Assembly (NCBI RefSeq): GCF_011207455.1
Contig: NZ_CP048877.1
Span: 1,542,576 to 1,606,575, forward strand
DNA length: 64,000 bases
Reading direction: 5' to 3'
Source: Thermosulfuriphilus ammonigenes
Lineage (GTDB): Bacteria; Desulfobacterota; Thermodesulfobacteria; Thermodesulfobacteriales; ST65
The notes beneath the pieces are model-generated. The model saw only the letters and a program-made list of their open reading frames with translations. It was not told where the DNA came from and searched no databases. The stretch's first letter is position 1, and every line of letters starts with the position of its first letter. This document shows positions 3,374 to 27,928 of this stretch, in pieces. Made by a program: the position numbers and the translations under genes.

Positions 3374-4726
3374 TCAGCCCATGACGTTTTTGATATGTTC
3401 GACAAGTTCTTGGGCGTAGGCCTTTATTTCCGCAGGGTCTTCTCCTTCTACCATAACTCGATAGACCGGTTCTGTGCCCGAGGGTCGGATAACTATCCGG
3501 CCCCGATCGGTTAGTTTGGCCTCAAGTTGAGCCTTGAGTTGCATGAGACCAGGGATTTCTTCTGGTGGACGTCTCTCTTTTACGCGGACATTCAGCAGTA
3601 CCTGAGGGTAGGTTTCCATTATCTGAGCCAGTTCGGAGAGAGCTCTCCCCTCTTTAATCATAACCGCCAAAAGCATTAAAGCGGCCAAGGTGCCGTCACC
3701 AGTAGTCATGTAGTCCAGAAAGATCAGATGGCCCGACTGCTCACCCCCCAGATTATAGCCTCCCTCTCGCATGGCCTCGACTACATAGCGATCTCCAACT
3801 TTGGTCCTTATGAGACGAACTCCCATCTTTTTGAGACAAACCTCAAGGCCCAGATTACTCATGACAGTGGCCACCACGGTGTTATTCCGAAGACGCCCTT
3901 CACGGACCATATCTCGGGCACAGATGGCCAGGATATGGTCGCCATCGACCACCTCACCGTATTCATCTACCACGATGACCCTGTCGGCATCACCATCTAA
4001 AGCGATTCCCATATCGGCCCTGGTCTCCCGAACCTTGGCCTGGACAACCTCCGGATAGAGAGCGCCGCAACGATTGTTGATGTTTATTCCGTCGGGCTCG
4101 ACGCCCACTTTGATGACTTCGGCTCCCAGCTCCTCAAAGACAGCCGGAGCTACCCGATAGGCGGCTCCGTGGGCACAATCCAGGACAAGCCGCAGACCAT
4201 CCAAGGTGTATTCCTTGGGGAAGGCCTGCTTTAAAAAGACTATGTAACGCCCCCGGGCGTCATCAATGCGAAAGGCCTTACCCACTCCGTCCCCGGTGGG
4301 GCGCTCCTGGTCCAGTTCGGGGCTTTCCATAAGGCGTTCAAGCTCGGCCTCTGTCTCGTCTGGGAGTTTGAAGCCATCACCAGAGAAGACTTTAATTCCG
4401 TTGTCTGGATAAGGGTTGTGAGAGGCGGAGATAACCACGCCGGCATCAGCCCGCATGCTGGAGGTCAGAAAGGCAATGGCCGGAGTAGGCATAGGGCCAA
4501 CCAAAAGAACATTGGCCCCCATGGAGCATATACCCGAGGCCAGAGCGGTCTCTAGCATGTAACCAGAGAGTCTAGTGTCTTTGCCGATGAGGACGCGGTG
4601 ATGTCCGCCGATCTTTTTAAAATAATAGGCGATGGCCCGTCCCAGTTTGAGGGCTGTCTCCGGAGTCATCGGAGGTTCGTTGGCCAGCCCCCGAATCCCG
4701 TCGGTGCCAAAGAGCTTTCTGTCCAT
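3374..4726 (-). CDS. glmM: Phosphoglucosamine mutase GlmM
   Basis: GlmM converts glucosamine-6-phosphate to glucosamine-1-phosphate on the way to UDP-N-acetylglucosamine for peptidoglycan and lipopolysaccharide. The protein starts [10 protein letters not shown], has the phosphoserine loop [14 protein letters not shown] with catalytic Ser102, the magnesium loop DGDADR, the sugar-binding GGEQSGH and the phosphate-binding RPSGTEP near the C-terminus. At 450 residues it has the normal length. The ATG at 4726 follows a purine-rich AAGGGG ribosome binding site. It is the last gene of folP-cdaA-cdaR-glmM, and its 5' end is overlapped by about 110 bases of the cdaR frame. Confidence 0.96.
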
Positions 4727-13457: not shown

Positions 13458-15003
13458 GAGACTTGATCCTCTCATAAGAAGGCTATCTCTGAAATTAACT
13501 CCTCCAAGTCTTGAGGATAATCGCTCCCCAGAGGCTCGATTAAGGGCTGCCGTGGCCCAGCTTTTAGGGGAGGTGCCCGAACTCCCTCTTCCAATTCTCC
13601 AGAGTCTGCCACCCGTCTTAAATAGAGATTGGTGTCCGGTGGTGGACTGCCTTTTTGATGGTCGGTGGCATGTAGTAGCCATCCACGGAGAATCTCCTCC
13701 CCCTCCTTTGGGTTTAGCTATAGATTTGGGAAGCACCACGGTGGTTTTTTATCTGGTTGATCTTTCTTCGGGAGAAGTTGTCCATCAACGTTCGGCTTTA
13801 AATCCACAGGTAAAATATGGTGAGGATATTCTTACTCGACTCCATCTGGCCTCCAAAAAGGAAGGCCTGGAGAGGATTCATCACCTAACCATAGAATTTC
13901 TTAACCGAGAGATTCTTTCTCTGGCCGAAGGGGTGGGTTATCGCCCGCAAGACATTTCTATTCTTGCCCTGGCTGGGAATACGACCATGACCCACTTCTT
14001 TCTGAACCTTGATCCCTCGATGATCTTTCGGGAGCCATATGTTCCCCTGGCTAACCGGTTTGATTTCTTTCCTGCCAAGGATCTGGCTCTTGAGCTCTCC
14101 CCTCTGGCAAAGGTCTATGTTTTTCCCAATGCCGGCAGCTACTTTGGGGGAGATCTTATCGCTGGGATTCTGGCCTCGGGGATGCACCGCCACCCTGGCC
14201 TTAACTTTTTGGTGGATGTGGGGACCAACGCCGAGGTGGTCTTGGGTAATCAGGATTTTCTGGTGGCCTGTGCTGGGGCCGCCGGCCCGGCGCTTGAGGG
14301 CGGAATTCTTACCTGCGGTATGCGGGCCAGAAAGGGAGCCATCGAGCGGGTTCGGATCGACCCCGAAAGTCTCCAGGTGAACTATAAGGTGATTGGGGAT
14401 GTTCCTCCGGAGGGGCTTTGTGGTTCGGGAATTATTGATCTTTTAGCCCAGATGTTCCTGGCCGGTCTGGTGGATCAGCGAGGACGCTTGATGATCGAGA
14501 AAGATCCTTCCCGGATGGTAGAGATTGATGGCCAACGGGCTTATGTGGTTGTCTTTCCTGAGGAGACATCCCATGGTCAACCTATCTACATTACCGAGGC
14601 CGACATTAAGAATCTTATCCGTTCAAAGGGAGCCATGTACACCATTCTTACGGTGGTCTGTCGCAGTGTGGGGGTTTCTTTTGAGGACATTGAAAATTTT
14701 TATGTGGCTGGAGCCTTTGGAAATTATATAGACCCTGAGGCGGCAGTAATTATTGGCATGCTACCCGATATTCCCCTCTCGCGTTTTCAACCTTTGGGAA
14801 ATGCTGCCGGCCAGGGCGCTATTTGCCTTCTGCTTAATCGCCAAGCTTTAGGCGAGATTGATGAAATCCTCAAAAAATTGACCTATCTAGAAATGAATGT
14901 TCGCGGAGAATTTATGCAACTTTTAACGGGGGCTCTCTTTATCCCCCACACAGACCCAAATCTTTTCCCCTCGGTAAAGGCCAAGCTGGGCAGCCGGGGT
15001 TAG
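13369..15003 (+). CDS. ASKHA-fold activator resembling RACo (corrinoid protein reductive activator), without the 2Fe-2S domain
   Basis: The protein matches the DUF4445/RACo family: a linker with PPSLEDNRS, then the ATPase fold with phosphate loop AIDLGSTTVVFYLVD, LAGNTTMTHFFL, VDVGTNAEVVLG and GLCGSGIIDL. RACo proteins use ATP to drive reduction of cob(II)alamin in corrinoid iron-sulfur proteins to the active cob(I) state. Family members normally start with a plant-type 2Fe-2S ferredoxin domain; here there is no room for one, since the conserved linker begins close to the start. The frame opens with TTG at 13369 inside the preceding gene, so the exact start is uncertain. No corrinoid methyltransferase lies next to it. 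Its stop overlaps the convergent gene by four bases. Confidence 0.8.
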   Translation: MSRSFRRKKARSLMSSAVRSPQSISRCPVKRLDPLIRRLSLKLTPPSLEDNRSPEARLRAAVAQLLGEVPELPLPILQSLPPVLNRDWCPVVDCLFDGRWHVVAIHGESPPPPLGLAIDLGSTTVVFYLVDLSSGEVVHQRSALNPQVKYGEDILTRLHLASKKEGLERIHHLTIEFLNREILSLAEGVGYRPQDISILALAGNTTMTHFFLNLDPSMIFREPYVPLANRFDFFPAKDLALELSPLAKVYVFPNAGSYFGGDLIAGILASGMHRHPGLNFLVDVGTNAEVVLGNQDFLVACAGAAGPALEGGILTCGMRARKGAIERVRIDPESLQVNYKVIGDVPPEGLCGSGIIDLLAQMFLAGLVDQRGRLMIEKDPSRMVEIDGQRAYVVVFPEETSHGQPIYITEADIKNLIRSKGAMYTILTVVCRSVGVSFEDIENFYVAGAFGNYIDPEAAVIIGMLPDIPLSRFQPLGNAAGQGAICLLLNRQALGEIDEILKKLTYLEMNVRGEFMQLLTGALFIPHTDPNLFPSVKAKLGSRG

Positions 15004-15224
15004 CGACGATTAAGCAGAGAGAGAATTAAAGTTAAGATGATACTTATGATAATCGATGTGGCCAGAGGAAAATAAAAGGTAAAATTATCCTTTTTGATGT
15101 ATATATCTCCTGGCAATCTTCCGATATAAGGGATTTTAGCCCCGAATATAAGAATCAGGCCTATAACTACCAAAATAACACCAAATAGAAGCAGCAGCTT
15201 TCCTAACCCTTCAAGAGGGCTCAT
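15000..15224 (-). CDS. DUF2905-type small membrane protein
   Basis: A 74-residue protein with two membrane helices and the family hallmark PYIGRLPGDIYIKKDNFTFYFPLATS between them. Function is unknown; members are usually encoded next to RNA-modification genes. Its start overlaps the queH stop (ATGA), so it is translationally coupled to queH. Confidence 0.85.
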   Translation of the reverse strand: MSPLEGLGKLLLLFGVILVVIGLILIFGAKIPYIGRLPGDIYIKKDNFTFYFPLATSIIISIILTLILSLLNRR

Positions 15225-15772
15225 GCCTGGCCTCCTTTTTTGAGCTTTTTGTCATAGCGCTCCTGTTCGCTGAAAATACAACCGCAGTAAGACTGAAGGT
15301 ATATCCCCATTTTCCGGGCCTGCCTCTGCCCCGCTGGCCATCCCTGGCGGAAATCTCGGTAGATGAAAGTTAGCCCATAACGATAGGCTAAGTCCTGGCC
15401 GATTCGCTGTATAAGATTATGCCGCTGATAACGGCTGTAAAGAAGGGTGGTACTGAAGGCCGAAAACCTCAGCTCTTTGGCCTTTTGGGCCGTGGCCTCA
15501 AGGCGAAGGAGGTAGCAGGCCCAGCAACGTTGCTCCTCCTGGAAGATCACCCGTCGCAGGTATTCCCTCAAACCGTAGTTGGTTTCGGCAATCAGAGAGA
15601 GCTTTAGCTCTTCGGCCATCTGGCGCATGGCCTGGAGACGACGGCGGAACTCCCGGAAGGGGTGGATATTTGGGTTATAAAAATAGGCTACCGCTTCAAG
15701 GCCTTCTTCTCTCAGGGCCTTTACCGGATAAAAGCTACAGGGACCGCAGCAGCAATGAAGGAGGAGTTTCAC
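15221..15772 (-). CDS. queH: Epoxyqueuosine reductase QueH
   Basis: QueH performs the last step of queuosine synthesis in tRNA, reduction of epoxyqueuosine, as an alternative to the cobalamin enzyme QueG. The sequence carries the N-terminal CCCGPC motif, a CWACYLLRLE stretch and the C-terminal YCGCIFSEQERY, which supply the ligands of the iron-sulfur and metal sites in this family. Length of 183 residues fits. It forms an operon with the DUF2905 gene. Confidence 0.92.
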   Translation of the reverse strand: MKLLLHCCCGPCSFYPVKALREEGLEAVAYFYNPNIHPFREFRRRLQAMRQMAEELKLSLIAETNYGLREYLRRVIFQEEQRCWACYLLRLEATAQKAKELRFSAFSTTLLYSRYQRHNLIQRIGQDLAYRYGLTFIYRDFRQGWPAGQRQARKMGIYLQSYCGCIFSEQERYDKKLKKGGQA

Positions 15773-18482: not shown

Positions 18483-18558
18483 TCCCGGGTAGCTCAACCG
18501 GCAGAGCGGGTGGCTGTTAACCACTAGGTTGGGGGTTCGAGTCCCTCCCCGGGAGCCA
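18483..18558 (+). tRNA. tRNA-Asn (anticodon GTT)
   Basis: The cloverleaf can be folded by hand: acceptor TCCCGGG (18483-18489) pairs with CCCGGGA (18548-18554), the D stem is GCTC/GAGC, the anticodon loop CTGTTAA carries GTT, and the T arm has loop TTCGAGT. Discriminator G and an encoded CCA end at 18558. The last eight bases, GGGAGCCA, are the left attachment core of the mobile element, and the tRNA remains complete after integration. Confidence 0.95.
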
Positions 18559-19990
18559 TTTCTTTATTTCGAACTAAATCAGACGGGCAAGAGGAAAAGA
18601 AATTTTGATTCTCTTTTTCTAAACGCCCACCACCCACCCCCACTTGACCAGAACCTTGTTGAGAGTGGTTTAAGTTATTGATCTTTAAAGAATATTTAAA
18701 GTTTACCCTGATTCTCTTTTTGGAATATTTTATTGAGTCAATTCTTTCTCTTATTAAAAGAACCTGCTCGGCTCGGGAGAGGGAGGAGAGGGTACTAAGG
18801 AAGGTTTTAAGTTGGAAAATTAAACCTTGAGGATCAATTTTCAATTGCTCCTTTCTTAGTTCGAATCCAGCCCGGTCGCCCGATACTCTATTTTTTATAA
18901 GGGAATTTCGAACTAACTCATCTGGATTATGATTTAGTCTAAACACAAGATTTTCAATATAAGGCTCATCTCTAGATACTCTTTCTAAATTCTCTAAAAC
19001 AAATTGTTCTAATCTATCAGCATTTACCTGTCTTGTAGTACATACCTGCCAGTCTCTTTTTAGAGTAGAGGTGCACCTATAATAAAAATATCTCCTTCTT
19101 CCTCTTTTTGCTTTTTTGTTTGTATAGGTAGGTGTCATTTTTGATCCGCATTCGTCACAGGTGACTAAACCAGCAAAAAGATAATTTCTAAAGAGCTTCA
19201 TTTTTCTAATTTTCTTTTTGTGTAGTTCTTGGGCTTCGTTGAAGAGAAGTTCACTAATTATAGGCTGGTGCAATCCATTATAAATTTTCCCAGCATATTT
19301 TAACTTTCCGATATAGACAGGATTAGAAAGGATATTTTTAATACTTGTTTTAGTAAAAACTTTGCCATACCTGTTTAAAATGTTTTTCTCTTTTAGTGTG
19401 TTATAAACTTCTGCTACTGAGCCAGTCTCAACATAGGTTTCAAATATCAACTTTACAATCTTAGATTCTTTCTCATCGGGAATAAGTTTTTTATTTAATG
19501 CTTTATATCCAAAGGGAGGAATGCCACCATTCCACAATCCTTTTTCTGCCCGTTGAAGCATTTTATCTTTTGTTCTTTCGCTTGCTAACTCTCTTTCAAA
19601 CTGAGCAAAAGTAAGCATTATATTTCTTAAAAGCCTTCCTGCTGGAGTAGAGGTATCAAATCTTTCTGTGATTGAGATAAAATCAACTTTGTATTTTTCA
19701 AAAATCTCCATTAAGTAGTAGAAATCTTTAGGAGAACGGGTAAGTCTATCAATCTTATAAACTAAGACTATGTTAATTTTGCCTTGTTTAATGTCTTCAA
19801 GTAATTCTTGTAAGGCTGGTCGATTAAGATTTGCTCCAGAAAAACCGGGATCAGAATAAACCTTAAAAACTTTCCAATTATTCTGGCTTTTAATAAAAGC
19901 TTTTATCTTTTCTTCCTGAGCTTCACAGGAGGAAAATTCTTTTTCAGCTTGAGTATCGGTTGATACCCTTGTATAGATTGCACAATTCAT
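18524..19990 (-). CDS. Large serine recombinase (integrase)
   Basis: The 488-residue protein has the resolvase-type catalytic domain with nucleophile Ser10 in AIYTRVST, the conserved YKIDRLTRS and FAQFERELASERT stretches, a recombinase domain with GGIPPFGYK at about residue 155, and a zinc ribbon starting CDECGSKM near residue 275. Large serine recombinases cut attP and attB with a two-base stagger and rejoin them. Residues about 400-480 lie in inverted repeat 1. The last eight residues (GEGLEPPT) are read antisense through the tRNA-Asn gene, so the C-terminus depends on the integration site. The start overlaps the OLD stop (ATGA). Confidence 0.95.
   Translation of the reverse strand: MNCAIYTRVSTDTQAEKEFSSCEAQEEKIKAFIKSQNNWKVFKVYSDPGFSGANLNRPALQELLEDIKQGKINIVLVYKIDRLTRSPKDFYYLMEIFEKYKVDFISITERFDTSTPAGRLLRNIMLTFAQFERELASERTKDKMLQRAEKGLWNGGIPPFGYKALNKKLIPDEKESKIVKLIFETYVETGSVAEVYNTLKEKNILNRYGKVFTKTSIKNILSNPVYIGKLKYAGKIYNGLHQPIISELLFNEAQELHKKKIRKMKLFRNYLFAGLVTCDECGSKMTPTYTNKKAKRGRRRYFYYRCTSTLKRDWQVCTTRQVNADRLEQFVLENLERVSRDEPYIENLVFRLNHNPDELVRNSLIKNRVSGDRAGFELRKEQLKIDPQGLIFQLKTFLSTLSSLSRAEQVLLIRERIDSIKYSKKRIRVNFKYSLKINNLNHSQQGSGQVGVGGGRLEKENQNFFSSCPSDLVRNKEMAPGEGLEPPT
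18551..18558 (+). other. attL core (GGGAGCCA) within tRNA-Asn
   Basis: Left junction: ...CCCC-GGGAGCCA-TTTCTT. The core is the tRNA 3' end including CCA. Comparison with the other two copies shows that only these eight bases are common to the tRNA side and the right flank. Confidence 0.85.
18551..18793 (+). repeat. Inverted repeat 1, left copy
   Basis: These 243 bases are repeated without a visible mismatch, in reverse orientation, at 22257-22499. The segment starts at the tRNA/attachment core and covers the 3' coding part of the recombinase gene (from about codon 400). Identity stops at 18794, inside the recombinase gene. Confidence 0.95.
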
Positions 19991-22005
19991 AGCTGTAAAG
20001 CTTGTTTTAAAGAATTAAAAAGAGAGTCCCATTTGGAAAGATTTTGTTTATTAATTTCAGTCTCTGGAAGGATAGAGATTAACGCTTTAGCTACTTTAAT
20101 TTTATCTATTTTTCCTGATTGTCCAATTTTTTTCTTTCTAAAGTATTTCTTTAAGCCGCTAAAGTTAGGTCTTTCTAAGTCTGAAGCTTCTATTTTTTCT
20201 TTGTTAAGTTTCTCTTTAAATATTTTTTTATACGCTATATTTACAGCCTGAAGATATAATTCGAAATCAATTAGGTCTTCTATTTCGGCATCTTCTCCCG
20301 GGTTTTCAGTAATTTTATCAAGGGTCAAGATCAGATTTTCTTCTATTTCAAATTTTTCTATTAATTCTTTTTTGATTTTTCTTCCTTCACTATCATGATC
20401 TAATAGCACAACAAAATTTAAGTTTTCTTTACTTAGAAGAGTAGAGAAATAAGGCATTTTTTCAGCACCACCAACAGGGATGATAGAAATTTCTCTATTA
20501 TCTAACTCTATATGATTTAATCCTTCTTCTTTACATATTTTTGAAAATGCTTCTAATATCAAAAAATCAGAAAATCCTTCTACTAAAATGTTTTTCTTAG
20601 TAGTAAATAAAGAATCTCCAATTGTCATTCCTATAGAAGCTCTGATAGGTTCTAGTGCATCATATTTGCTAATATAAAATTTTTCCTCTATTTTGGTTCC
20701 TATTCGGTCCTTTTCTTTACTTACAATTCTAACTCTCTGCAAATTTTTTCTATCTATTAAAAAGGGAGAATGGGTAGTGAAAATTATTTGATTGTGTTTA
20801 GAAATTTTTTCTAGTGTGTTTAATAAATCTCTCTGTCCTGAAGGATGTAAATATACACCAGGATCGTCAAGGAGAATAACTGTATTCTTGAGCTCACCTT
20901 TAGACCCTGCTGTAAAATTGATATAAAAAGAAAGGAACCATTGGAAACCTTGACTTCTTCTAGTTGGTGGATCTAAGGCTCCTACTTCATCCTCAATATA
21001 AACTATAATTTCCCCACTATCTAGTCTCAGTTTTATGTTTACTTTTTCTTGTTTCCATGATTCGTTTATATATCCAGTTATAGTAGCAGAAGCTTCGCTT
21101 TCTGCAGCTAGCCTCTCATAATGATCTACATCTTTTAATCGTTCCACATCTAACCCTGCAAGTTTTAATAGATTATTAAGGGTTTTGTATTTCTCCCTCT
21201 CTTCTAAAAATTCATCTATTCTTACCGTATCAGTAAGTTCTTCCATTGTGTTGAAATAGATAAATTGAGGTGTTATTTTTAAAATTTTGTCGATTATACT
21301 ATCTTCTCCTGCTAAGATTTTTTTGAATTCTAATTTATATTGGTCAAGTTTTTTTATAAATGATTCAATATCATTTTGAATATAAGTATCTTGGTTTGGG
21401 AGACTTCTTAATTGGGTGTAGAAGGAGCTAAATGTTGTATCGATATTTGGGTCTTCTTGTGGACTATAGGACTCAATCTGTGATAATATTTGCTCATACT
21501 GTTGTTTGGCAGAGGAGAAAGGAGAATATCTTTGAGCGTGTGAATCAAGTTTTTCTTTAAAGGCAGTAATTTCGTTCTTAAAATCAATTGCAATTTTATT
21601 AAAACTCTCTTCTTCTATTTTTTCTAAATCAACATTATCTATTTCCACTTCGTAGGTATTATCAAAAAATTTGGTAATTTTAATAGTGTTTATTTTAGTA
21701 AGCTGGGAGTGAATTTCTTTTAATTTTTCCTTATCTTCTTTTTCGATTTCAAACCAAATAGTTATAATAGGAACATCTTCTTTTTCTATCTCCCCTGACT
21801 CTAATTTTTTCTTTGTCGCAGAATAAATACACAAGTCGCTATCAGTATATTCATAATCACCATTGAAAGATTCTAATGCTTTAAGAATATTAGTCTTGCC
21901 AGACTCATTTTTGCCTATTAAGACCGTAATTTCAGGCTCTAAATTAACCTCGCCCGAATTTTTAATTGATCTGAAGTCTTGTATGATAAATTTTTTTATT
22001 CTCAT
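19987..22005 (-). CDS. OLD-family ATP-dependent endonuclease
   Basis: An AAA/ABC-type ATPase domain opens with RIKKFIIQDFRSIKN and Walker A GKNESGKT at residues 31-38; the signature and Walker B region ILLDDPGVYLHPSGQ is near residue 370. A C-terminal TOPRIM nuclease domain has the Glu in LVEGFSDFLILE (about residue 472) and the DxD in LLDHDSEGRK (about 533). OLD proteins are nucleases, several with anti-phage function; no UvrD-like partner (as in Gabija) is encoded beside it. It overlaps the HTH gene before it and the recombinase after it by four bases each, so the three proteins are translationally coupled. Length of 672 residues is usual for the class. Confidence 0.92.
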   Translation of the reverse strand: MRIKKFIIQDFRSIKNSGEVNLEPEITVLIGKNESGKTNILKALESFNGDYEYTDSDLCIYSATKKKLESGEIEKEDVPIITIWFEIEKEDKEKLKEIHSQLTKINTIKITKFFDNTYEVEIDNVDLEKIEEESFNKIAIDFKNEITAFKEKLDSHAQRYSPFSSAKQQYEQILSQIESYSPQEDPNIDTTFSSFYTQLRSLPNQDTYIQNDIESFIKKLDQYKLEFKKILAGEDSIIDKILKITPQFIYFNTMEELTDTVRIDEFLEEREKYKTLNNLLKLAGLDVERLKDVDHYERLAAESEASATITGYINESWKQEKVNIKLRLDSGEIIVYIEDEVGALDPPTRRSQGFQWFLSFYINFTAGSKGELKNTVILLDDPGVYLHPSGQRDLLNTLEKISKHNQIIFTTHSPFLIDRKNLQRVRIVSKEKDRIGTKIEEKFYISKYDALEPIRASIGMTIGDSLFTTKKNILVEGFSDFLILEAFSKICKEEGLNHIELDNREISIIPVGGAEKMPYFSTLLSKENLNFVVLLDHDSEGRKIKKELIEKFEIEENLILTLDKITENPGEDAEIEDLIDFELYLQAVNIAYKKIFKEKLNKEKIEASDLERPNFSGLKKYFRKKKIGQSGKIDKIKVAKALISILPETEINKQNLSKWDSLFNSLKQALQL

Positions 22006-22208
22006 TTTTTCTCCTTGGGTAAATTATAAGATCTTTGAGTAAGCCACCTATCGATATCCTCTTTCCTAAATCTCCATTTCTTACCAGCCTTTAAAGCGGG
22101 TATTTTCCCTTTTTGTGCCATCTTATAGATAGTATGGACACTAAGCCTTAAATATTCAGCTACTTCTTCTAAAGTCATTAGCTTTTCTGGTATCTTTTCG
22201 TCTTTCAT
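22002..22208 (-). CDS. Excisionase-like HTH DNA-binding protein (OLD/recombinase operon)
   Basis: A short MerR-like winged helix-turn-helix of the excisionase type: MTLEEVAEYLRLSVHTIYKMA, then KGKIPALKAGKKWRFRKEDIDRWL. Such proteins bind DNA as directionality factors or as transcription regulators. The promoter at 22219-22247 puts the transcript start almost at the ATG of 22208, so the mRNA may be leaderless; an upstream in-frame codon at 22247 would lie inside the promoter. The stop overlaps the OLD start. It is a paralogue of the HTH at 27093. Confidence 0.85.
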   Translation of the reverse strand: MKDEKIPEKLMTLEEVAEYLRLSVHTIYKMAQKGKIPALKAGKKWRFRKEDIDRWLTQRSYNLPKEKK

Positions 22209-22218
22209 AGTATTTAAT

Positions 22219-22247
22219 AGTATAGCTAAGTATTTCTTAAAAGTCAA
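22219..22247 (-). promoter_or_regulatory. Sigma-70-type promoter of HTH-OLD-recombinase operon
   Basis: On the minus strand TTGACT (22247-22242) and TATACT (22224-22219) are separated by 17 bases. The site lies between the edge of inverted repeat 1 and the HTH start, so it belongs to the unique arm and would flip with it. Confidence 0.7.
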
Positions 22248-22256
22248 ATAAAGAAC

Positions 22257-22499
22257 ACCCTCTCCTCCCTCTCCCGAGCCGAGCAGGTTCTTTTAATAAG
22301 AGAAAGAATTGACTCAATAAAATATTCCAAAAAGAGAATCAGGGTAAACTTTAAATATTCTTTAAAGATCAATAACTTAAACCACTCTCAACAAGGTTCT
22401 GGTCAAGTGGGGGTGGGTGGTGGGCGTTTAGAAAAAGAGAATCAAAATTTCTTTTCCTCTTGCCCGTCTGATTTAGTTCGAAATAAAGAAATGGCTCCC
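22257..22499 (-). repeat. Inverted repeat 1, right copy
   Basis: Reverse complement of 18551-18793. Its inner edge at 22257 lies ten bases upstream of the -35 box of the HTH-OLD-recombinase operon. Its outer edge, the core TGGCTCCC, is shared with inverted repeat 2. Confidence 0.95.
22492..22499 (-). other. Internal attP core, inverted
   Basis: On the minus strand the context is GGATG-GGGAGCCA-TTTCTT, that is, the right end of the element joined through the core to its left end. This is the junction expected in an excised circle, present here inside the integrated element in reverse orientation. Confidence 0.85.
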
Positions 22500-22794
22500 C
22501 ATCCTTCCATTCTTCTAATCATTCCTTTTGACTTCCCCAATGAGATTCACGGATGTAAAAGAAAGAATCTTTAAGTAAAGTTTTACCCCACCACCCCGCG
22601 CTCTCGGTGCTCGGGCTTCAGTACTTTCGGGCTTCCGTAGTCTGTGTTCTGAGTCTGCTTCCACCTTTGGGATACCTGTTTTTGGGAGTTTCTTTTATGT
22701 GGGGCTTTAGCCGGAAATAGAAGCAAAAAGAACAAAAATCTCTAAAGAAAAAGGTATTATCGGAATTCTTTCTTGAACATAAATCCCGTATAGC

Positions 22795-22823
22795 TTGACT
22801 TTTGCTTAATTTTTCCATATAAT
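22795..22823 (+). promoter_or_regulatory. Promoter in inverted repeat 2, left copy
   Basis: TTGACT (22795-22800), a 17-base spacer and TATAAT (22818-22823). It points at the truncated HTH copy and then into the 3' end of the restriction-modification gene in antisense. Confidence 0.75.
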
Positions 22824-22892
22824 TATGGACGCTGTTGAACTTTAGTGTATTTAAATAGACTTAGCATTACAAAACTTGGAGGCTTAAAGGAA

Positions 22893-23057
22893 ATGACCAA
22901 TAAAGAAGAAAAATTGATGACCGTAAAAGAGGTGGCAGAATATTTAAGGCTTGATGAACATACAGTTTACAGAATGGCAAGAAAAGGAGAAATCCCAGCC
23001 TTTAAAATCGCTGGTCAGTGGAAATATATTTTTAATTGTTATCAAAAAATTGCTTAA
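22893..23057 (+). pseudogene. Truncated copy of excisionase-like HTH gene
   Basis: The first 43 codons equal those of the gene at 27287-27093 (MTNKEEKLMTVKEVAEYLRL...). Past the repeat edge at 23021 the frame reads into unrelated DNA, replacing RFKKELLEKW with KYIFNCYQKIA and stopping at 23057. The recognition helix is kept but the wing is damaged. Its end overlaps the convergent restriction-modification gene by 26 bases. Confidence 0.8.
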
Positions 23058-26000
23058 TAATCTTTATATCTTCTTCTTCCAATCCATATAGGTGATAAAC
23101 AATTCGATCAATAAGTTTGTCCGTTTCGGCTATGCGATTTTCACAATTTCTTAGAATATTTAAAGCGATTTCTTTTTTGAGATCTTCTGAGGCAGAATCT
23201 TCCCAATGAGGATGTTTTTCTAATAACTTTATTAGCTGTATCATCTTATCAGAGCCATGTTCAAGTTTTCCATCTATGAAAAGTTGAAGCAGATATTTAT
23301 TCTGATTGAATTCTATCATCTTCTCAGCTAAATAAGCAAGAAAATCGTGGAGAACAGCAGAGTTCGAGGGGAGGGATTGTATCTTTTCGTGTAACTCTAC
23401 AAATTCATCGTTTTCGTATTTGTGTTTAAGTATGCTTAATTTTTTATCATCACGGGTAGTAAAATCTATTTTGGGAAGAGGCAATGAATCTACTTCATAA
23501 CTGTTCACATGATTAGTGGTGCTGGTAAGCCTAAATAGCCATTCCAGTAAATTAGAGTTTAATATAGCAAGGATAAAATTCAAAGAAAACTTTTGGGGAT
23601 TAACAATATAGTTTATCGTATCAGCACAAAAACTTCCTTTTGGTATTAAAGTAGCAATTATTCGTCTCCAATTGTCAAGTGCTGCTCCTCTTTGATAACC
23701 TATTCTTTCGTAACGATAGTCAAATCCTTTAGAATCATTTCCTCTAAATGACGACAGAAAATCTTTCCACCGTATATAATAGTAGCCACCTTGTTTGGGT
23801 GCATGTATCAGATATCTATCAATATATGCTCCCCTTAAAACTTCCTTATATTCATTTCCAATTTTTTTCTGCGGTTTCTGGAAATGTTTAATGAACCTCC
23901 GATGGGTAGAAACATTTACTTCTCCTTGCTTTGAAATGGCAAAGTTTTCAAGAGCAATTCCGGACGATCGGACTTTAATAGCAATTTCTATTTCTTTATT
24001 GGTAGTCAATGGTTTTGTTGGAAATCTTAGTAATTGTGGATCAAAAACTTTTATTTCTTCAGCTGACATAAAAATAATTGGTGTTGAGGTTTCAATATAC
24101 TTATAGGGATGGATTCTAATTTTAAACTTCGCTTTAGGATTTGCGATATGGGCTTTATTCCCTACATACACACATACCGGAAGCTTTGCTTCTTTAAAAA
24201 CTCTAAGATCTGGATTATCTTTATGAGGGAATGCCTCTATACTTACAAAGTTAAATCTTTTTAACATAAACTTTCTCAATTTTTGACTGTGTTTATCGCC
24301 TAATATTCCTAATGGAACAATGAAACTATGGAATCCCCCTTCCCTTGTAAGAAACTTTAAGCTTAAAGATATAAACAGTCTAAAATAATTTATTTTTTGC
24401 CCAATAGATGGATGAAACAGCTTATTGTTTTCGTAAAATGTTTTTTCTGCTTCTACATCTTCTTTGCTACGATTCTGTTCTTTTGCGGAAATAATATCAT
24501 ACGGAGGATTTCCAATCACAACATCAAAACCGCCGTTTGCTTTTTTCCTCCCCTTTTCATACCACACTTCTGGAAATTCCAGTTTCCAGTGAAAGAATCG
24601 TTTATTTTGGGCAAGATTAAGAGCTGTATCTATTAAATTTTGTTCCTCTTGTGTTAGATCTACTTTTCCAGAAATAACATCTAAAGGATCTCCTTTCGTC
24701 CCATCAAGCAAACTCAAGGGCGATTTATACTTTTTAAGATCAGATTTTTTCTTTGGTCTTAAGAAAAACTCAGCGGTATAAACATTTAAAAGCTTTTTAT
24801 ATGGTTCAAGTTGCTTAACAATATTATCGTAGATTTTCGCGCTTTCTTCTACTTCTGATATGTCAGCATCGGTGATCTCCTGAAGCTTTTCAATCATTGC
24901 AACGGCATTCATAAGCCCTGCGTATTTTGAGCCAAAGAGTGGGCTTTTCTCAAATATTTTGTCAAAGTCTTCTGGATTTGCACCGATAAGAGAATTACCA
25001 CATTTCAAATGGTGGTCTAAAAACGAAAGGGGAGCACCTATAGTGAAGGTATGAAGCCATAAAGAGACTTTCGCAAGTTCAACTGCAAGTGGATTTACAT
25101 CAACCCCATAAATACATCGTTTTAAAATAATTCTTTTGATTAAATTCTTATCTTCGAGTTGCGTTTCATCAATTATGTAACCCTCTTTTTTTGCTTTCTC
25201 TAAAATACGTATTCTTATATTTTCCAACTTTTCTATCAGAGGACTGCGATAAATTTCTTTTCCAAAGTAACTTTTATTAGAAGTTTCTGCCAGTATTTCA
25301 AGTATTCTGTCCGAAAGATAGTCAACAGCACCGACAAGGAAATGCCCGCTTCCCATAGCTGGGTCAAGAATTTTGAGTTTTAATACTGATTCAGCCGGGT
25401 CTTTTAATGTTAAAAGTGCATTCCTATAAGCATTGAGGTTCTTTTCGCTTATGATTCTTCCCCTATCGTCATAAGTCTTGGGGTCAAAAGGAATGTTGAA
25501 TTCTATTATTAATTTTTGCAATTCACTTTTGTTTTTAGTTTTTAATAGATCTTTCCACTCCTCAAATTCTCTCAATTTTTCTTGTATAAGAGGCTCGATA
25601 GAGTTTTTGACAATATATTGAACTATATAATCTGGTGTGTAGTAAGAACCCGTAGCTTTTCGCTCAGACTTATCGTTCGTTAAATATAATTCCCCTTTCT
25701 TTATTTTTGCTTCTTTTTCATTTTTAACTGGATGATAAATTTCTTTTCCTTTTTCTTTTTTCACGCCAAGGTGAGTTTCAGCGATTTTTAACTTAAACTC
25801 TAATAGCCCTTCATAAATACTCCCTAATTGTCTAACCGAAAGGTCTCTATAATTTATTCTTTTTGGCGGAGTTACTGTGTAGTCTCTGCTTAATTTATCG
25901 ATAGCCGGTACCAGAAACTTATCTGGGACCGAGTAATTTTCTAAAAATGGATGTTTTTGAGGGTCAAAGAGTCCTCCGTTATAAGGTGGAATTCCTAAAC

Positions 26001-27078
26001 TTTTATCTCCATTATTTATGATTCTGAAAAGGTTTTTTATTCTATCCCAATAGAAAGATGCTATTTCACTTAGACTTTCTTTCTTGTCAATCTTTTCAGC
26101 TATTTCGTCTCGAATTTTGCTGAGCGAATAATTTCTGTAACTATTGTTTCTTATAGGAAGAAGATCTCTATCTTCAGCATAAAAAATAAAAAGTAATCTG
26201 TATAGCAGAACCAATGTGTTATCATAGATTTCCTGTAAAAGAGAATCATCGTTTCTACCCTTTGCTTTAGCAACCTTCAAAAAACCTTTAGCTATATCAG
26301 GGAAGATTTCATAAAATATTTTTTCTTTAAGATCTTCTGATACCCTTTCTTCCCAACGTTTCCCCTCTTCGAGAGCTATTTCTAGAAAAGTTCTGTGAGG
26401 TCTCCAATTGGTGGGAATGAAAGCCTCTTTTCTAAAAAGAAGATAAAAAAGCTTGAATTTTTCTCTTTTGTCTTGGACGCTCTCAAATAGAGAAGCTTCC
26501 TCCAAAATTTCGCTTAGGTTAAATTCAATATATCCTTCTGCTCTGGAAGGGGCTCGATGATAATATAATCTCCAAATTTCTCCGTTTGTCAGAATCCCCC
26601 ACACTATATGCCCGTTAGATGCTGGGTCAACCGCTGAAAGGTATCTTAAAATTTGGTTAGATGGAATATAAGGATCGATAGGATCGGTTCTGTCTCCTCT
26701 ATCTAGATGTCTTTTCCATCTTTTTCCCTCTAAAATGCAGATTCCCTTATTCCAAGGCTTACGATTGCTTGGTTCTCTATCAAAGTCTTCTTTAGATTTT
26801 TCATCAGGAAATAGAACAAAATCTGGAACATCTTGCCTGCCCTTTCTGGAGGGAGATTTTTGCCTCGACCACTGAAAACCAAGAAGTTCTATGATAGGGC
26901 GAATTAAACCATCTTCGGTATCTGCTTCATCTGGTTTTTTTCTTTTGCTAAAATGTTTAAAAATTTGCTTTGCCTTTGAATAAAAGTTTTCCAGCTCCTG
27001 TTCAGAACATTTTTTCCAGTCTTCGGTGAACTTTATTCCTTCTACTAAAAAATAATTACTAAAAAGGCTCCCTTTCAT
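23032..27078 (-). CDS. Type IIG (Eco57I-like) restriction-modification enzyme
   Basis: A single 1348-residue polypeptide joins a nuclease, an adenine methyltransferase and a target recognition region. The N-terminal PD-ExK nuclease is seen as Asp86 in VPDFVLFP and E117-x-K119 in ILEGK. The methyltransferase has motif I DPAMGSGHFLVG at about residue 573, YGVDVNPLAVELAK, and catalytic NPPY at about 856. The rest is a TaqI/Eco57I-like C-terminal specificity domain. Such enzymes methylate one strand of an asymmetric site and cut unmodified DNA nearby. No separate specificity or restriction gene accompanies it. It follows an HTH gene by 14 bases, and its low G+C content fits recent transfer. Confidence 0.93.
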   Translation of the reverse strand: MKGSLFSNYFLVEGIKFTEDWKKCSEQELENFYSKAKQIFKHFSKRKKPDEADTEDGLIRPIIELLGFQWSRQKSPSRKGRQDVPDFVLFPDEKSKEDFDREPSNRKPWNKGICILEGKRWKRHLDRGDRTDPIDPYIPSNQILRYLSAVDPASNGHIVWGILTNGEIWRLYYHRAPSRAEGYIEFNLSEILEEASLFESVQDKREKFKLFYLLFRKEAFIPTNWRPHRTFLEIALEEGKRWEERVSEDLKEKIFYEIFPDIAKGFLKVAKAKGRNDDSLLQEIYDNTLVLLYRLLFIFYAEDRDLLPIRNNSYRNYSLSKIRDEIAEKIDKKESLSEIASFYWDRIKNLFRIINNGDKSLGIPPYNGGLFDPQKHPFLENYSVPDKFLVPAIDKLSRDYTVTPPKRINYRDLSVRQLGSIYEGLLEFKLKIAETHLGVKKEKGKEIYHPVKNEKEAKIKKGELYLTNDKSERKATGSYYTPDYIVQYIVKNSIEPLIQEKLREFEEWKDLLKTKNKSELQKLIIEFNIPFDPKTYDDRGRIISEKNLNAYRNALLTLKDPAESVLKLKILDPAMGSGHFLVGAVDYLSDRILEILAETSNKSYFGKEIYRSPLIEKLENIRIRILEKAKKEGYIIDETQLEDKNLIKRIILKRCIYGVDVNPLAVELAKVSLWLHTFTIGAPLSFLDHHLKCGNSLIGANPEDFDKIFEKSPLFGSKYAGLMNAVAMIEKLQEITDADISEVEESAKIYDNIVKQLEPYKKLLNVYTAEFFLRPKKKSDLKKYKSPLSLLDGTKGDPLDVISGKVDLTQEEQNLIDTALNLAQNKRFFHWKLEFPEVWYEKGRKKANGGFDVVIGNPPYDIISAKEQNRSKEDVEAEKTFYENNKLFHPSIGQKINYFRLFISLSLKFLTREGGFHSFIVPLGILGDKHSQKLRKFMLKRFNFVSIEAFPHKDNPDLRVFKEAKLPVCVYVGNKAHIANPKAKFKIRIHPYKYIETSTPIIFMSAEEIKVFDPQLLRFPTKPLTTNKEIEIAIKVRSSGIALENFAISKQGEVNVSTHRRFIKHFQKPQKKIGNEYKEVLRGAYIDRYLIHAPKQGGYYYIRWKDFLSSFRGNDSKGFDYRYERIGYQRGAALDNWRRIIATLIPKGSFCADTINYIVNPQKFSLNFILAILNSNLLEWLFRLTSTTNHVNSYEVDSLPLPKIDFTTRDDKKLSILKHKYENDEFVELHEKIQSLPSNSAVLHDFLAYLAEKMIEFNQNKYLLQLFIDGKLEHGSDKMIQLIKLLEKHPHWEDSASEDLKKEIALNILRNCENRIAETDKLIDRIVYHLYGLEEEDIKIIKQFFDNN

Positions 27079-27092
27079 CGTTTTGACCCTTC

Positions 27093-27287
27093 CTATTCAC
27101 CACCCACGGATTTTAGTTTGTTTTCAATCCATTTTTCTAGAAGTTCTTTTTTAAATCGCCACTGACCAGCGATTTTAAAGGCTGGGATTTCTCCTTTTCT
27201 TGCCATTCTGTAAACTGTATGTTCATCAAGCCTTAAATATTCTGCCACCTCTTTTACGGTCATCAATTTTTCTTCTTTATTGGTCAT
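27093..27287 (-). CDS. Excisionase-like HTH DNA-binding protein (restriction-modification operon)
   Basis: 64 residues with the excisionase-type helix-turn-helix MTVKEVAEYLRLDEHTVYRMA and wing KGEIPAFKIAGQWRFKKE. It heads the restriction-modification gene with a 14-base gap and could act as its controller or as the element's directionality factor. The first 43 codons lie in inverted repeat 2. I prefer the ATG at 27287, preceded by AAAGGAA and GGAGG; an in-frame ATG at 27335 lies within the leader. Confidence 0.85.
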   Translation of the reverse strand: MTNKEEKLMTVKEVAEYLRLDEHTVYRMARKGEIPAFKIAGQWRFKKELLEKWIENKLKSVGGE

Positions 27288-27356
27288 TTCCTTTAAGCCT
27301 CCAAGTTTTGTAATGCTAAGTCTATTTAAATACACTAAAGTTCAACAGCGTCCATA

Positions 27357-27385
27357 ATTATATGGAAAAATTAAGCAAAAGTCAA
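27357..27385 (-). promoter_or_regulatory. Promoter of HTH/restriction-modification operon
   Basis: Same sequence as at 22795-22823, on the minus strand: TTGACT, 17-base spacer, TATAAT. A leader of roughly 65 bases would precede the HTH start. Confidence 0.75.
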
Positions 27386-27680
27386 GCTATACGGGATTTA
27401 TGTTCAAGAAAGAATTCCGATAATACCTTTTTCTTTAGAGATTTTTGTTCTTTTTGCTTCTATTTCCGGCTAAAGCCCCACATAAAAGAAACTCCCAAAA
27501 ACAGGTATCCCAAAGGTGGAAGCAGACTCAGAACACAGACTACGGAAGCCCGAAAGTACTGAAGCCCGAGCACCGAGAGCGCGGGGTGGTGGGGTAAAAC
27601 TTTACTTAAAGATTCTTTCTTTTACATCCGTGAATCTCATTGGGGAAGTCAAAAGGAATGATTAGAAGAATGGAAGGATG

Positions 27681-27688
27681 GGGAGCCA
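27681..27688 (+). other. attR core (GGGAGCCA)
   Basis: Right junction: GGATG-GGGAGCCA-AATGAC. Joining the tRNA side of attL to the bases after 27688 restores a plausible empty attB. Confidence 0.85.
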
Positions 27689-27689
27689 A

Positions 27690-27791
27690 ATGACACGCTG
27701 CACAAAACTCTCTCCTGAGGAAATAGACCAAATATCCTACAATTATTTTGGCCGTCTGGACTTCCTTTCAGTAATAGACGAGCTGCTTTAA
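27690..27791 (+). CDS. Possible 33-residue ORF abutting attR
   Basis: ATG follows GGGGAG by four bases and opens MTRCTKLSPEEIDQISYNYF, ending DFLSVIDELL. No family recognised. The ribosome binding site is partly the attachment core, so before integration the tRNA 3' end would have stood there. It may be the remains of a longer host gene. Confidence 0.3.
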   Translation: MTRCTKLSPEEIDQISYNYFGRLDFLSVIDELL

Positions 27792-27793
27792 GG

Positions 27794-27928
27794 GTGCAGA
27801 AGATCATATTTCTCCTCGGCTGTGAGGTGCTTAAAGACCTCTTTGAAGTATATCTGAAATTGGCCTTGAGGGGCGTGAGGAGGAATGCGGGGAAAGGCCT
27901 TGGAAGCGGGATATGGAATGGAGAGTAA
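27794..27928 (+). CDS. Possible 44-residue ORF, maybe continuation of a broken gene
   Basis: A GTG two bases after the previous stop opens VQKIIFLLGCEVLKDLFEVYL and ends at 27928. It is shifted by one frame from the 33-residue ORF; together they could be a decayed gene. No homology recognised. From 27929 to 28099 I see only a GC-rich imperfect hairpin near 28061-28095 that may end the convergent transcript. Confidence 0.25.
   Translation: MQKIIFLLGCEVLKDLFEVYLKLALRGVRRNAGKGLGSGIWNGE

Follow-up and report, generated by a model that had tools for sequence, protein, structure and literature searches.

Why should the gene of an OLD-family nuclease be joined to those of a large serine recombinase and a small helix-turn-helix (HTH) protein? 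The question is raised by a three-gene set in the chromosome of Thermosulfuriphilus ammonigenes, which we analysed in a window of 64,000 nucleotides (nt) from the closed, one-contig genome; coordinates are positions within this window unless another contig is named. The first-pass annotation had placed the set at 18524-22208 and had proposed either a regulated defence cargo or a direct role of the OLD protein in recombination or replication of an element. The HTH-OLD-recombinase operon forms the left half of an element inserted at the 3' end of tRNA-Asn. Taken as a whole, the locus is probably best explained as one of two mirrored modules (the A-module) of a mobile defence element, which entered tRNA-Asn by means of its own recombinase and carries a swappable OLD gene.

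The element at tRNA-Asn and its mirrored modules

The GC content of the chromosome (50-53%) dropped to about 30-38% between approximately 18.5 and 27.7 kb. The left border of this region lies at a tRNA-Asn gene (GTT; 18483-18558, + strand), detected by ARAGORN and Rfam. The last 8 nt of the tRNA gene, GGGAGCCA (18551-18558), constitute the left attachment (att) core, attL, and the same GGGAGCCA recurs as a direct repeat at 27681-27688, the right core, attR. The corresponding empty site was found in a genome from a different family of the same order (G510, locus L050), in which tRNA-Asn is followed directly by the sequence present here after position 27688 (a match of 73% over 215 nt). The recurrence of the core at both ends and the empty site delimit an integrated element of 9,130 base pairs at 18559-27688. 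Approximately 180 nt to the right of it (27689-27870), without a clear gene, are kept beside tRNA-Asn in L050 (72% over 206 nt). The recombinase (488 aa; 18524-19990, - strand) scored above the Pfam cut-offs for Resolvase, Recombinase and Zn_ribbon_recom, so that the domains, the direct repeat and the empty site of an integrative element with a large serine recombinase were all found. Its reading frame stops inside tRNA-Asn, and the span first assigned to the three genes thus covered only part of a unit that extends to 27688.

The interior of the element is built of perfect inverted repeats. The left A arm (18551-18793), in which the att core is joined to the recombinase 3' end, is the reverse complement of a middle copy at 22257-22499 (243/243 nt), which comprises a fragment of the recombinase 3' end and a core. 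The middle B arm (22492-23021) is in turn the reverse complement of the right B arm (27159-27688; 530/530 nt), which ends in the attR core. The middle arms meet at a third att core (22492-22499, - strand), and this junction, B-GGGAGCCA-A, is an intact attP inverted with respect to attL and attR. The element therefore consists of two modules, one with the recombinase, OLD and HTH genes between A arms and the other with a type IIG restriction-modification (R-M) gene and a second HTH gene between B arms. It follows from the same layout that the circle predicted to arise by excision would have identical attP regions at two places, one inverted relative to the other.

Related elements and their cargo

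Comparison loci are denoted by L-numbers and contigs by genome:contig pairs (G:C). A GTDB scan with the recombinase yielded four close relatives whose labels lie far apart (HR37, Aminicenantes JdFR-80, a Nitrososphaeria bin and an Actinomycetota bin), and a wider search added recombinases at 55-59% identity. A scan of 297 genomes of the host phylum revealed no further close relative. In IMG/VR, protein scans found no relatives of the OLD protein or the recombinase, and the A-arm sequence had no match; the middle region of the element had no DNA match among plasmids, nor the recombinase DNA among phages. In the papers searched, a set that leaves many journals outside its coverage, we met no account of an element with mirrored modules and paired attP regions in inverted orientation.

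Several relatives retain the arms and differ in cargo. In L006, an NTase-HEPN pair (PADLOC type PDC-M05) lies between the mirrored arm and the recombinase, and the contig ends inside the repeat, leaving a 101-nt inverted match of the mirrored A arms. The same position in L007 is occupied by a different OLD gene behind a related HTH gene; an exact match of 138 nt in the inverted sense links L007 to L008, a partial case of the mirrored A arm, and the two may belong to closely related elements. In L067, mirrored A arms (241 nt, 93%) surround an unrelated 375-aa gene, an XRE regulator and the recombinase, and L068 has a HerA-SIR2 cargo beside a recombinase of this family. Nor is the HTH protein a constant partner of the recombinase, since the modules that hold the recombinase in L006, L067 and L068 showed no HTH_17 gene. 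This outcome is close to the one that the first-pass annotation had itself set against its proposal, with varying neighbours of the recombinase and OLD as cargo.

A complete four-arm layout was found on G534:C169, whose recombinase is 55% identical and whose A end also lies at tRNA-Asn (20618-20692 of that contig). On this contig, a core and B arm lie at 3955, B arm, core and A arm follow at 14784-15306 (core at 15038), and an A arm and core close the element at 20368-20624 (core at 20618). The two A arms are 82% identical over 269 nt and the two B arms 84% over 262 nt. The cargo comprises HerA-SIR2 in the A-module and a TIR protein, methyltransferases and a DrmD helicase in the B-module. These data define an element family by its architecture (two modules, four mirrored arms and three att cores), which has outlasted divergence of the recombinase to 55% identity and a complete change of cargo, and they offer a concrete route for the possible swapping of defence genes between distant thermophiles. 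To the left of the G534 element, a decayed older A end (recombinase 3' end) with an att core was observed (L069, 300-760), a sign of repeated insertion at one tRNA-Asn.

Several further loci bear traces of related elements. In HR37 (L005), a relative occupies the same tRNA-Asn position, and an array of 17 regularly spaced, CRISPR-like repeats (64-1347 of L005) lies 7 kb from the recombinase remnant. Besides tRNA-Asn, L074 (G900:C47, 12117-16901) contains an RmrA-like gene, a toxin-antitoxin-like pair and a recombinase of the family ending in a tRNA-like remnant (RVGLEPTI). L040 (G300:C23) encodes the same OLD protein as L007 (OLD2); its recombinase is frameshifted and differs in part, its A-core is reversed, and the locus is probably a chimeric or rearranged element. 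Since related pieces look chimeric or rearranged, L040 and L042 (G300:C75), both contigs of metagenome-assembled genomes (MAGs) from hot springs, were left out as evidence on layout, and L042 was used solely for the comparison of tail codons described below.

The recombinase tail, predicted inversion and competing explanations

The reading frame of the recombinase crosses its own attP. The integrated protein ends in GEGLEPPT, read from antisense tRNA-Asn, and the corresponding junction of the HR37 copy, at its own tRNA-Asn, reads EGFEPPT. Across attP, the frame would be 504 aa long, closing with a 26-residue tail (APHPSILLIIPFDFPNEIHGCKRKNL), so that integration would swap a conserved tail for antisense-tRNA codons. 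The tail across the core is also present in L042 and, more diverged, in L006, and its motif IHGCKRKNL occurs in G534 as well. When the window was compared with L042, 8 of the 14 differences in the tail fell at third positions, with 8 synonymous versus 4 non-synonymous codons, a pattern that departs from random placement (p = 0.0005). The tail is thus conserved in the manner of coding sequence, and it could act as a switch of the recombinase.

The working that most likely accounts for this anatomy is as follows. Family knowledge and the anatomy suggest that the recombinase integrates the element by attP x attB recombination at tRNA-Asn. OLD would be expressed together with the recombinase from the A-module promoter and stand outside the recombination machinery. 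Either of the two attP sites of the circle could integrate at tRNA-Asn, giving two integrated isomers, each with one intact attP left in the middle of the element. Recombination across the arms, RecA-dependent or catalysed by the recombinase on attP x attP, would turn the modules round. Such a turn of the A-module would restore to the recombinase the tail encoded across attP and would preserve the identity of the arms. More tentatively, we consider it possible that these loci form a family of bacterial mobile defence elements that resemble a 2-micron plasmid run by a serine recombinase, with programmed inversion of both cargo modules between their paired, inverted attP sites. If so, inversion would switch the C-terminal tail of the recombinase, change the module beside the tRNA and let elements exchange modules. 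The locus also raises the question of why a serine-integrase element has a second, inverted attP, and whether integration switches the recombinase through replacement of its tail.

Several observations weigh against this working. The inversion and the circle are predicted from assembled sequence rather than from reads. The HR37 copy has no mirrored arm and its recombinase is frameshifted, and the L074 contig ends within the recombinase, before any arms. The inverted recombinase fragment of L067 has an intact frame, yet its substitutions show no coding constraint (p = 0.21). Several relatives are short MAG contigs with unreliable host labels and may be misbinned. Most serine integrases, moreover, do not recombine attP x attP (PMC3556126, PMC3783163). 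The A118 integrase performs this reaction in vitro at <5% of its attP x attB rate (PMC3556126), but at a high level within one molecule in Escherichia coli (PMC3556126, PMC3783163), and CcrA/CcrB have been reported to recombine attP x attP (PMC3783163).

The strongest competing explanation accepts the element and its cargo and differs on the function of the arms. According to it, the arms are a by-product of a one-time inverted dimer in which duplicated genes disappeared or gave way to cargo; gene conversion has since kept the arms alike without any switching function. We regard this as a serious possibility, although not the favoured one. RecA-mediated conversion could maintain similar arms that do nothing, the A arms of G534 are nearly identical in their outer ~120 nt and diverged inside, and inversion is itself a prediction. 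Nevertheless, A and B arms persist between elements with 55%-identical recombinases and wholly different cargo, which is long for a useless repeat, and the recombinase tail beyond attP is conserved as protein. Arm identity was 82-100% within one element versus 40-89% between separate elements, and the differences between the arms in G534 and L067 lie mostly in the inner part, distant from the core. This likeness within elements and the inner location of the differences fit an old architecture kept alike by recombination, not a single recent accident.

An unlikely alternative treats the modules as separate transposon-like units, each flanked by long terminal inverted repeats that end in an att core, and the locus as a stack of insertions beside tRNA-Asn. 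Each module alone does resemble such a unit, and the decayed A end outside the G534 element indicates that stacking occurs. However, the junction in the middle has precisely the structure of an attP (B-core-A), the two outer ones match attL and attR precisely, at a tRNA 3' end for which an empty site is known, the A-module precedes the B-module in both complete elements, and the two B-modules seen lack a recombinase of this family.

The mobile two-module element with swappable cargo also accounts better for the OLD gene than a direct part of its ATPase/nuclease in recombination, excision or replication, the second proposal of the first-pass annotation, which we consider very improbable. The ATGA coupling to HTH and recombinase and the presence of an OLD-type protein in the L007 relative speak in its favour. 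The OLD proteins of the window and L007, however, are 26% identical over the matched part while the recombinases of the two are 91% identical, other relatives have no OLD, OLD relatives elsewhere have no such recombinase, and the coupling is not conserved. On the cargo of the relatives, OLD was rejected as a component of the recombination machinery, and the comparisons support OLD as exchangeable defence cargo of a recombinase that keeps its arms and not its cargo. Of the first proposal, a regulated defence cargo, "defence cargo" was thus borne out, and regulation appears plausible. Finally, it is hardly credible that the mirrored arms are an assembly artefact: coexisting excised and integrated forms could confuse an assembler and most relatives are MAG contigs, but the genome studied here is closed, the L067 arms differ by 7%, and the G534 arms cannot be one sequence used twice because they are 16-18% diverged from each other.

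The operon, the defence genes and known systems

The three genes lie on the - strand as first annotated, according to the open reading frame (ORF) calls: HTH1 (68 aa, 22208-22002), OLD (672 aa, 22005-19987) and the recombinase (19990-18524). The ATGA overlaps were confirmed at 22005-22002 and 19990-19987, as was the promoter TTGACT (22247-22242), separated by 17 nt from TATACT (22224-22219), which lies just outside the A arm. It was among the best sigma-70-like matches (10/12), a class that was not more frequent than in shuffles (31 versus 29.4 +/- 5.6), and in L007 the same HTH gene follows a promoter of similar TTGACT/TATACT form. A single promoter driving HTH1, OLD and the recombinase is plausible. 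HTH1 starts with ATG at 22208, although a TTG upstream also opens an ORF from 22247; the distance from TATACT to the ATG is 10 nt, which would leave the mRNA almost without a leader. Bacterial operons often have four-base stop/start overlaps, and neither of the two present here is kept in L007 or L006.

The OLD protein combines an AAA_15 ABC-type ATPase with an OLD-like TOPRIM domain, the architecture of its family, and contains the motifs GKNESGKT (Walker A), LLDDPGVYLHP, VEGFSD and LDHDSEG. Its closest solved structure is the OLD-family protein 6p74, and it is predicted to act in defence. The closest relative found in the phylum (G136, 47% identity) is part of a type I R-M locus, and relatives on plasmids adjoin toxin-antitoxin, insertion sequence or Tn7-type genes; none of these OLD relatives has a large serine recombinase beside it. 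The ATPase-TOPRIM pair resembles Gabija GajA and other OLD-family nucleases, which it does not resemble in its operon with HTH and recombinase. Membership in Gabija was rejected, since no UvrD-like gene (GajB helicase), either beside OLD or elsewhere in 18559-27688, was found.

Both HTH proteins are of the HTH_17 type and resemble MAD1, the first gene of the MADS operon, and each heads a defence operon. HTH2 (80 aa; 27093-27335, - strand) is the first gene of the R-M operon, behind a promoter TTGACT-17-TATAAT at 27385-27357. Their MAD1 scores (77.6 bits for HTH1 and 77.3 for HTH2) are just under the cut-off of 80 and the other MADS genes are absent, and the element was therefore not assigned to MADS. 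HTH1 also passes a generic excisionase-domain model. It is present in the window and L007 and was not seen in L006, L067 (where XRE occurs instead) or L068, and we rejected it as a dedicated excisionase or required directionality factor. Since the R-M operon, too, begins with an HTH gene of this type, the role of an operon regulator is likelier.

With regard to its recombination functions, the element resembles tRNA-targeting elements with integrases of the A118/TP901-1 type in the Resolvase, Recombinase and zinc ribbon domains, the position of the integrase gene at attL, the short direct core repeat and the restored tRNA 3' end. It differs from them in the two inverted attP regions, the mirrored ends of each module and the recombinase frame that crosses attP. 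The predicted circle, divided into two unique halves by identical recombination regions in inverted orientation, would work like the yeast 2-micron plasmid (Flp/FRT), a comparison of working only: the enzyme is a serine and not a Flp-type tyrosine recombinase, the element integrates in the chromosome, no replication gene was seen, and the inversion is predicted. The nearest curated recombinase model is CcrB of the staphylococcal cassette chromosome (SCC); membership in SCC was rejected, given a score of 219.8 bits against a cut-off of 900 and a target of tRNA-Asn and not rlmH. We know of no mirrored modules in SCC elements. A palindromic core usable in either orientation was also considered; when six attP sites were scanned for dyad symmetry, even the best centre, the GG of GGAGCCA, was weak. 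GG is also the dinucleotide of the A118 integrase.

The B-module encodes a type IIG-like restriction enzyme/methyltransferase of 1,348 aa (23032-27078, - strand), recognised by Eco57I and N6_Mtase domains and by the PADLOC models DrmMI and REase_MTase_IIG. Within the adjoining middle B arm lie the codons of the conserved recombinase tail, a copy of the promoter (22795-22823, + strand) and a truncated HTH2 (22845-23057, + strand). This promoter copy is a full TTGACT-17-TATAAT; together with the truncated HTH2 it is aimed at the 3' end of the R-M gene and could make an antisense RNA to the R-M mRNA. A different arrangement of similar parts was observed in L042 (1-1778), where 76-nt inverted arms that carry a promoter enclose an HTH_17 gene and a tyrosine-recombinase gene in place of a serine recombinase, adjoining the same core and B arm and an MjaI-type R-M pair.

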